Part shown: positions 3,910 to 5,455 of the stretch, piece after piece | Position numbering within the stretch: position 1 is the stretch's first letter | Layout of the letters: each line of letters starts with the position of its first letter | Assembly: GCA_002162095.1 (NCBI GenBank) | Contig: CP021424.1 | Span: 1,178,001 to 1,242,000 of the forward strand | Length of the DNA: 64,000 nt | Source of the DNA: Armatimonadetes bacterium Uphvl-Ar2 | GTDB taxonomy: Bacteria; Armatimonadota; Fimbriimonadia; Fimbriimonadales; Fimbriimonadaceae | Direction of reading: 5' to 3' | The notes under the pieces: generated by a model | The model's input: the letters and a program-made list of their open reading frames with translations, nothing else | Databases searched by the model: none | What the model was told of the DNA's origin: nothing | Translations under genes and position numbers: made by a program

Positions 3910-3995
3910 GGGGAGTTGCCCGAGCGGCCAATGGGAACAGACTGTAAATCTGTCGGCGAGAGCCTTCGCAGGTTCGAATCCTGCACTCCCCACCA
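3910..3995 (+). tRNA. tRNA-Tyr (anticodon GTA)
   Basis: This 86-nt class II tRNA has acceptor arms GGGGAGT (3910-3916) and ACTCCCC (3985-3991), discriminator A and an encoded CCA (3993-3995). The anticodon loop contains GTA at 3944-3946. A long variable arm (around 3952-3970) and the T-loop GGTTCGAATCC are present. The long extra arm with GTA is typical of bacterial tRNA-Tyr. It is the left boundary of the Fic-bearing segment. Confidence 0.95.
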
Positions 3996-4132
3996 TCGTT
4001 CCTGACCTGCCGTTGCTCTTACGAGTCGTTCGATTCTCGGCGGCATCCATTTACTCGCTGTTCCTTTTGAGGAGATTACGCTTTCACTCGAAGGCCTCTT
4101 TGTCCGAAATTGAAACTTGCTTGAAGGTTCCT

Positions 4133-4178
4133 GAGGAGAATAGAAGCCTTATTCTCCTCTAATATTGAGGAGAATAAG
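4133..4178 (+). promoter_or_regulatory. operator-like repeat cluster at the Fic gene start
   Basis: A perfect 12-bp inverted repeat, cttattctcctc (4148-4159) and gaggagaataag (4167-4178), is separated by 7 nt. A third copy of the half-site, gaggagaata, occurs in direct orientation at 4133-4142. The cluster sits 16 bp before the chosen GTG start and covers the alternative TTG start. It could be an operator for a repressor, possibly the Fic protein itself through its C-terminal winged-helix-like domain, or an RNA hairpin. The role is inference. Confidence 0.5.
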
Positions 4179-4194
4179 TGCCATAATCTCATTA

Positions 4195-5310
4195 GTGCCC
4201 ACTTACATCCACGAGCGCAAACAGTGGCCGGGCTACCGCTACGACGCAACCGCCATTCTGCCAAGCCTCGAACGAGTGACCTTGGCACGCGGGCGTCTGT
4301 TTGGCATTCTTGAGGCGATCGGACTGGATGAAAAGCAGGAACACGACGTTGCGGCCCTGACTGAAGAACTGGTCAAGTCCAGCGCAATCGAAGGAGAAAG
4401 ATTGAATCCCGAATCCGTGCGGAGTTCCGTCGCTAGGCGCCTCGGCGTAGAACGGGGCGGGCTGGCCTCCTCCGACCATTACGTGGATGGATTGGTGGAG
4501 ATGACCCTCGATGCCGCGCATCGATACGATCTCCCCCTGACCGAAAATCGGCTCTTCCGGTGGCACGCGGCCCTGTTTCCCACGGGACGCAACGCCTACG
4601 GCCCGGTATCAGTCGGCCAGTGGAGAACGGACGAAGAGGGGCCGATGGTGGTGGCATCTCAAAAGCGTGGCCGTGAGATCGTGCACTTTGTCGCCCCTCA
4701 TTCCGACAGAGTCGCCCATGAGATGTCTCAGTTCCTCGCATGGGTTGAGGACAAAAACGAGGAGAGCCTCATTCTCAAAGCGGGAATCGCTCATCTCTGG
4801 TTCGAGACGATCCACCCCCTCGATGATGGCAACGGCCGTATCGGGCGCAACATCATGGACTTGCTCCTCGCACGGGCCGATCAGCGCTCGCATCGACCGT
4901 ACAGCATGGCCAGCCAAATCCTCGCCCACCGGTCGGATTACTACGACATGCTCGAAGCCACGCAAAAGGGAAACCTCGACTACACAGCCTGGCTAAATTG
5001 GTACCTCATGATTCTCCATATGACCTTGGATGCAGCCACAGAAACGGTAAGTCAGGCGATCGGGAGGGCACAGTTTTGGCAAGCCGCTAAGGACGTTCCG
5101 CTCAACGACCGGCAGCGAAAGGCCGTCTCCCGGATGCTCATGGGCTGGGAGGGCCGCATGACGAACCGCAAGTACGCCAGCTTGTGCAATTGTTCTACGG
5201 CGACCGCGACGAGAGACCTCAATGACCTTGTCGACAAGTCCATCCTCCGCCCGGATGGTGCGGGCGGGCGAAGCACCGGCTACGAACTGGTGAAGCCCGA
5301 CTCCATCTGA
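4195..5310 (+). CDS. Fic/DUF4172 family protein AMPylase with C-terminal winged helix
   Basis: Fic proteins transfer AMP, or another nucleotide monophosphate, to hydroxyl side chains of target proteins. This 371-aa copy has an N-terminal DUF4172-type region (YIHERKQWPGYRYD near the start), an inhibitory-helix motif SSAIEGE (about 65-71), the FIC core motif HPLDDGNGRIGR with catalytic His near residue 207, and a C-terminal helix-turn-helix-like domain (about 305-365, including NRKYASLCNCSTATATRDL). It is therefore a class II, auto-inhibited Fic enzyme. The start is uncertain: GTG at 4195 matches the usual N-terminus of the family, and a TTG at 4165 would add 10 residues and overlap the palindrome. 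GC looks lower than in its neighbours and it lies between two tRNA genes, which suggests acquisition by transfer. Partners and targets are unknown. Confidence 0.88.
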   Translation: MPTYIHERKQWPGYRYDATAILPSLERVTLARGRLFGILEAIGLDEKQEHDVAALTEELVKSSAIEGERLNPESVRSSVARRLGVERGGLASSDHYVDGLVEMTLDAAHRYDLPLTENRLFRWHAALFPTGRNAYGPVSVGQWRTDEEGPMVVASQKRGREIVHFVAPHSDRVAHEMSQFLAWVEDKNEESLILKAGIAHLWFETIHPLDDGNGRIGRNIMDLLLARADQRSHRPYSMASQILAHRSDYYDMLEATQKGNLDYTAWLNWYLMILHMTLDAATETVSQAIGRAQFWQAAKDVPLNDRQRKAVSRMLMGWEGRMTNRKYASLCNCSTATATRDLNDLVDKSILRPDGAGGRSTGYELVKPDSI

Positions 5311-5380: not shown

Positions 5381-5455
5381 GCCCTCGTAGCTCAGAGGTA
5401 GAGCACCTCTTTGGTAAAGAGGAGGTCACGGGTTCAATTCCCGTCGAGGGCTCCA
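5381..5455 (+). tRNA. tRNA-Thr (anticodon GGT)
   Basis: This 75-nt tRNA has acceptor arms GCCCTCG (5381-5387) and CGAGGGC (5445-5451), an encoded CCA (5453-5455), anticodon stem CCTCT/AGAGG with loop TTGGTAA (anticodon GGT at 5413-5415), and the T-loop GGTTCAATTCC. It is the right boundary of the segment carrying the Fic gene. Confidence 0.95.

Follow-up and report, generated by a model that had tools for sequence, protein, structure and literature searches.

The two closest described systems provide precedents for a Fic protein that represses its own gene and for one whose dimers form on DNA. CccR of Yersinia pseudotuberculosis, a Fic protein with a C-terminal helix-turn-helix (HTH), represses its own promoter via inverted repeats near the -35/-10 boxes, with evidence from footprinting, EMSA and lacZ (excerpts of PMC9755527). 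CbFic2 of Coxiella burnetii (PDB 8CIL) binds random DNA with nanomolar affinity and dimerises on it, and its DNA-bound dimers deAMPylate while free monomers AMPylate (excerpts of PMC10628234); the same excerpts name no specific site and no autoregulation. For the anti-phage Fic protein SoFic, no operator in front of its gene sofic is mentioned in the excerpts of PMC12249575.

Here, we describe an array of half-sites in front of a fic gene in a 64,000-nucleotide stretch of contig CP021424.1 from Armatimonadetes bacterium Uphvl-Ar2 (the window). Like cccR, this gene has inverted-repeat sites over its own (predicted) promoter. However, the excerpted CccR description gives a single pair of 10-bp repeats at a distance of 26 bp, whereas the window has a lattice of alternating forward (F) and reverse (R) half-sites in the order F-R-F-R, with F-R spacings of 17-18 and R-F spacings of 15-16 or 26-27 (start to start). 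This lattice was not found in the literature on DNA-binding Fic proteins, chiefly that on CccR and CbFic2 as excerpted, in a search that lay outside preprints and most subscription papers.

The Fic protein and its gene

The nearest solved structure to the window Fic is CbFic2 8CIL (sequence E 7.1e-86; fold TM 0.86 with chain B), and the two are alike in their DUF4172-Fic-winged HTH order, class II inhibitory motif and Fic motif. The N-terminal DUF4172 (PF13776) matches with E 4.5e-27 and 94.6 bits against a cut-off of 25, and the Fic domain (PF02661) with 59.9 bits against a cut-off of 24. The HPxxDGNGRxGR-type motif reads HPLDDGNGRIGR, and the invariant Fic-domain columns include H207, G212, N213, G214, R215 and R218. 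The inhibitory motif (S/T)xxxE(G/N) is present as SSAIEG, which aligns with SAIEG of 8cil and whose residues I65, E66 and G67 are invariant in 37 sequences. The C-terminal HTH-like domain proposed in an earlier sequence-only reading appears in the AlphaFold2 model (mean pLDDT 89.8) as a winged HTH with helices 305-315, 324-331 and 335-347 plus wing strands. In domains, motifs and fold, the protein thus has the features of the CbFic2-like class II DUF4172-Fic-wHTH proteins. The model reaches a TM of 0.47-0.48 against 7xux, a Fic protein structure that may be that of CccR. The PADLOC SoFic model, which has no curated cut-off, matches residues 15-360 with E 2.4e-41, and the NCBIfam SoFic equivalog NF046030 gives 53.6 bits, far under its cut-off of 550.

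The likely start of fic is the GTG at 4195, because the DUF4172 match opens at the fourth residue counted from it, the relative L012 has an ATG at the aligned position, and the annotated starts of plasmid homologues lie at most two codons from this position in 15 of 16 cases (11 codons upstream in the other). The TTG at 4165, considered by the sequence-only reading as a start hidden in a hairpin, was rejected, as the DUF4172 match opens 13 residues into that frame. An extended -10-like element precedes the GTG (Table 1). Among the 21 closest loci, all have a TATAAT match (at least 5/6) in the 45 bases before the start, 9 of them with the extended TG, in a count made without a shuffle control. 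A sigma-70 -35/-10 scan of this region of the window found no promoter. The -10-like CATAAT with its extended TG, seven bases before the GTG, suggests a nearly leaderless transcript. A terminator scan called the R2-F3 hairpin on the minus strand only, and a second, unrelated terminator-like site at 4080-4095.

The fic gene stands alone between tRNA-Tyr and tRNA-Thr genes (window 3910-3995 and 5381-5455). In G120, a genome from the same genus, no Fic match reaches E <= 0.001, and a comparison of flanking synteny with this sister genome gave no lead. Given this lone position and the genome without a Fic match, fic may be an accessory insertion.

An array of four half-sites

Two features that had been noticed from the letters are exactly as described: the perfect 12-bp inverted repeat formed by CTTATTCTCCTC (4148-4159) and GAGGAGAATAAG (4167-4178), with arms 7 bp apart, and the third copy GAGGAGAATA as an exact 10-bp match. 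The array is larger, however, and when read as 11-letter half-sites consists of four TGAGGAGAATA-like sites in F-R-F-R order between 4132 and 4194 (Table 1). The repeat score of the region -140 to +5 around the GTG is 8 against a shuffle mean of 1.8, and none of 100 dinucleotide shuffles equalled it. In the relatives L040 and L012, the R4 position is intact (TGAGGCGATTA), and in L039, a 91%-identical relative, both the degenerate R4 and the extra forward site are kept. This extra site lies 64 bp upstream of F1.

Table 1. Features of the fic locus, in window positions
Feature	Position	Strand	Remarks
Extra forward half-site	4068-4078	+	TGAGGAGATTA; one mismatch to TGAGGAGAATA; out of register with main array
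Half-site F1	4132-4142	+	TGAGGAGAATA; includes the third copy at 4133-4142
Half-site R2	4150-4160	-	reverse strand AGAGGAGAATA
Half-site F3	4166-4176	+	TGAGGAGAATA
Half-site R4, degenerate	4184-4194	-	forward letters TAATCTCATTA, reverse strand TAATGAGATTA; overlaps -10-like hexamer
Proposed operator dyad O1 (F1-R2, 29 bp)	4132-4160		one mismatch to dyad pattern; putative dimer site
Proposed operator dyad O2 (F3-R4, 29 bp)	4166-4194		two mismatches to dyad pattern; putative dimer site
Extended -10-like element TGcCATAAT	4179-4187	+	from sequence; CATAAT ends 7 bases before GTG 4195
fic gene, GTG start (likely), 371 aa	4195-5310	+	encodes DUF4172, the Fic motif HPLDDGNGRIGR, SSAIEG as inhibitory motif and a C-terminal winged HTH
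Predicted recognition helix, residues 335-347	5197-5235	+	T335 and A336 at its start, includes T339; AlphaFold2 model and covariation with half-site letters

The exact 12-mer has no occurrence in the 2.63-Mb genome other than the two in the array. Allowing one mismatch, the half-site has seven matches in the genome against five for a reversed-pattern control. A genome-wide scan with the 29-bp dyad pattern (up to three mismatches) returned O1, O2 and one three-mismatch stray at genome position 1965965.

Conservation and spacing of the lattice

We collected 109 loci including the window, oriented them by tblastn and kept 100, dropping the duplicates L010, L011, L014, L018 and L101, one locus whose N-terminal part was not located (L097) and three of another Fic family (L036-L038). 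Repeats were scored de novo over -140 to +5 of each locus, which passed when at most 5 of 100 shuffles did as well. The sequence-only reading had proposed searching for the half-site upstream of DUF4172-Fic homologues, and the outcome was clearly positive: the array passes in 84 of the 100 loci (73 at 0/100 shuffles), which are related to one another (at 70% identity, the 83 analysed further below amount to an effective number of about 41), and in 12 of 16 held-out plasmid loci, taken from 385 plasmid records and fetched after the rule had been written down. The remaining 16 loci and 4 plasmid loci failed at this threshold. Among control regions, 5/97 far-upstream, 2/100 in-gene and 8/98 downstream stretches passed. 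The record titles name Chthonomonas and Fimbriimonas (Armatimonadota), Ignavibacteriae, Deltaproteobacteria, Burkholderiales and Marinomonas, and the passing plasmid loci include Alphaproteobacteria, Pantoea and Acinetobacter. The same lattice precedes DUF4172-Fic homologues in several phyla, with differing letters.

The spacing between sites is regular. The site caller contains no spacing term; its register weights favour TGA and TGC starts. Counting sites with up to two mismatches, 245 adjacent pairs comprise 122 F-R pairs at 17-18, 74 R-F pairs at 15-16, 11 R-F pairs at 26-27 and 38 others (start to start), and F-R pairs at other spacings number 7. The 207 in-register pairs compare with a mean of 12.7 and a maximum of 24 over 1000 position randomisations, and at least one such pair is present in 91 of 100 loci. 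Since the F-R distance is constant while the R-F distance takes two values, we take F-R to be the dimer site and R-F the distance between dimers; with roughly one helical turn between the two R-F values, adjacent F-R dyads would keep their relative face. The binding unit is probably the forward-reverse dyad rather than the reverse-forward pair at 4148-4178 that the sequence-only reading had noticed. The R site next to the predicted promoter is in fixed register with a -10-like hexamer (at least 5/6), which sits at offset -2 in 35 of 99 loci and at -3 in another 16, with any other offset in at most 6.

Three loci (L050, L069 and L078) have two reverse-forward-reverse blocks upstream of fic, with a reverse-reverse distance of 27 bp, and L048 and L058 have similar arrays plus one more forward site in between. 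Among distant Fic genes (25-31% identity, 20 loci), 7 passed at up to 5/100 shuffles, and their repeats are different and less regular. These distant genes belong to another Fic family, and L148, L151 and L152 among them have different inverted or direct repeats upstream, such as TTATTATCAG in L152. An Aureibacter plasmid (L171) carries two tandem Fic genes, the second of which, annotated DUF4172, has no detectable array.

Half-site letters and the recognition helix

The letters of the half-site differ between lineages. The window and L039 have TGAGGAG, and the closest Fimbriimonad relatives of the window have TGAGGCG; groups of Burkholderiales carry TGAGTCG, TGAGCCG and TGAAGCG, and TGCGGCG and TGATACG occur elsewhere. 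These letters are associated with the predicted recognition helix: the window and L039 combine T or A at residue 335 with A at half-site position 6, and the next-ranked relatives D335 with C6. Asp at residue 336 goes with C at position 3 in 7 of 7 such loci and with none of the 76 loci with A there.

Paralogues within one genome and the held-out plasmid loci carry most weight for this association. Of seven paralogue stretches, six were used, leaving aside L121 with its near-absent upstream sequence; half-sites were read by eye. The three paralogues of G093 have TGATACG, TGTCCTG-like and TGATGCG sites with the helices SPMTAF, IPKTAQ and SVPTAF, respectively. Of the G081 copies, two have both D335 and the half-site TGAGGCG in common, and TGATCGA stands at a third. 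The two D335 copies lie about 3 kb apart on contig C3 (127256-132503; L014/L042 and L118). In the held-out set, Asp-336 occurs in five loci, all with C3; of the remaining 11 loci, 10 have A and one has G. Some loci depart from a simple code: L027 combines T335 with C6, H335 is found with both C6 and A6, and the held-out L157 has Y339 with G4 against A4 in 9 of 9 earlier Y339 loci. Position 3 is mixed A and C among the sites of the held-out L159.

Across 83 of the 100 loci (the 84 passing ones minus L092, whose HTH is cut off), residues 335, 336 and 339 rank 1, 6 and 7 by mean normalised mutual information among 371 columns. The triplet 335/336/339, picked after inspection of the letter/residue table and the mutual information, gave a marginal partial r of 0.223 with a deep clade retained (all 11 half-site letters; thinning at 85% left 65 of 89 rows), a value matched by 50 of 1000 random triplets. 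In the same run, the best nine-residue segments start at 292-294, 36-39, 122-123 and 78, and the segment at 333 reached 0.211 against a maximum of 0.367. With three settings altered together (the clade of 10 removed, letters 3-8 only, 90% thinning; 68 rows), the triplet was reached by 0 of 2000 random triplets over all pairs and over pairs at least 45% or 50% identical, and by 10 of 2000 over pairs at least 60% identical; T335 as a single column ranked 145 of 349 over all pairs. Independent pairs were drawn from the same 83 loci on a tree built without the HTH. For position 3 against residue 336, two pairs were supported and both were concordant (p 0.5; four pairs when all branches are counted). 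Position 4 against F/Y/W339 gave six pairs with about 3.4 concordant and 0.1 discordant, and position 6 against residue 335 three pairs with about 1.3 concordant, while position 5 against R335 or S339 gave six pairs each, none concordant. These tree-based tests have low power owing to too few independent changes, and some lend no support to the helix-letter link.

Discussion

The array is very probably the operator of fic itself, at which bound Fic would repress its own promoter, as judged from its position, conservation and letters. This agrees with the autoregulation that the sequence-only reading had considered plausible, in that the array is conserved near homologues and its letters are associated with the recognition helix of the protein. 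We propose the following hypothetical mechanism, in which (i) Fic dimers would form via the DUF4172 helix, as reported for CbFic2; (ii) these would bind 29-bp forward-reverse dyads of the pattern TGAGGAGAATA-N7-TATTCTCCTCA via the C-terminal winged HTH; (iii) two such dyads, with centres 34 bp apart, would occupy -63 to -1 relative to the GTG; and (iv) the second dimer, lying over the -10-like element and adjoining the start codon, would block RNA polymerase and keep the level of Fic low. As O2 overlaps the -10-like element and adjoins the start, bound Fic should exclude RNA polymerase. The nanomolar affinity of CbFic2 for random DNA counts against a settled sequence specificity in the family (excerpts of PMC10628234). 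The degeneracy of R4 in the window also tells against the reading, as do the loci that failed the shuffle threshold, the relatedness of the rows and the marginal covariation with the deep clade retained.

Autoregulation might also work with the dimer on the reverse-forward pair R2-F3, flanked by F1 and R4 as accessory half-sites. We regard this arrangement as unlikely: no other pair in the window matches as well as R2-F3, and the CccR footprint, by our own matching, would be reverse-forward in the present notation (excerpts of PMC9755527), but it is the R-F spacing that takes two values (74 and 11 pairs) and the F-R spacing that is fixed (122 pairs against 7). That Fic binds the array and activates transcription, or merely parks there with altered enzyme activity, is improbable. 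The shift in the AMPylation/deAMPylation balance of CbFic2 on DNA binding (excerpts of PMC10628234) would fit such a role, whereas the place of O2 over the -10-like element and next to the start is the usual one for a repressor, and CccR is a repressor (excerpts of PMC9755527).

Gene-adjacent operators often serve another regulator, and the array could in principle be the operator of a cellular protein other than Fic. We give this very little credence, as the lattice accompanies the gene across phyla and plasmids, paralogues within one genome have different half-sites, and the letters go with the recognition helix of Fic. Least probable of all is an mRNA hairpin of R2 and F3 that governs translation, for instance by masking the TTG at 4165, an alternative raised by the sequence-only reading. 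The region 4125-4215 does fold well as RNA (-31.9 kcal/mol, z -5.0, with 0 of 200 shuffles as good). However, a hairpin would not require the letters shared by the direct copies F1 and F3 and by R4, the hairpin lies upstream of the -10-like element, and both the DUF4172 match and the plasmid annotations place the start near the GTG rather than the TTG.

Beyond autorepression, the operator might double as an antidote, although we consider this a long shot. If DNA-bound dimers deAMPylate and free monomers AMPylate, as in CbFic2, its sites, being the only strong ones in the cell, would keep the few Fic molecules harmless. Loss of the operator DNA through plasmid loss or phage breakdown of host DNA would then both free and derepress Fic, and fic would be a single-gene switch for addiction or abortive infection in which the operator DNA serves as the antitoxin. 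The results supply a list of operators predicted for an enzyme family, together with a spacing rule and an initial match between recognition-helix residues and operator letters. It can now be tested directly whether these enzymes are set to AMPylate or deAMPylate by a specific site or by DNA of any sequence. DUF4172-Fic genes are likely self-regulated single-gene systems, on chromosomes as well as on plasmids. The 385 plasmid records each hold a homologue at E <= 1e-40, and 101 of these are on plasmids typed as conjugative.
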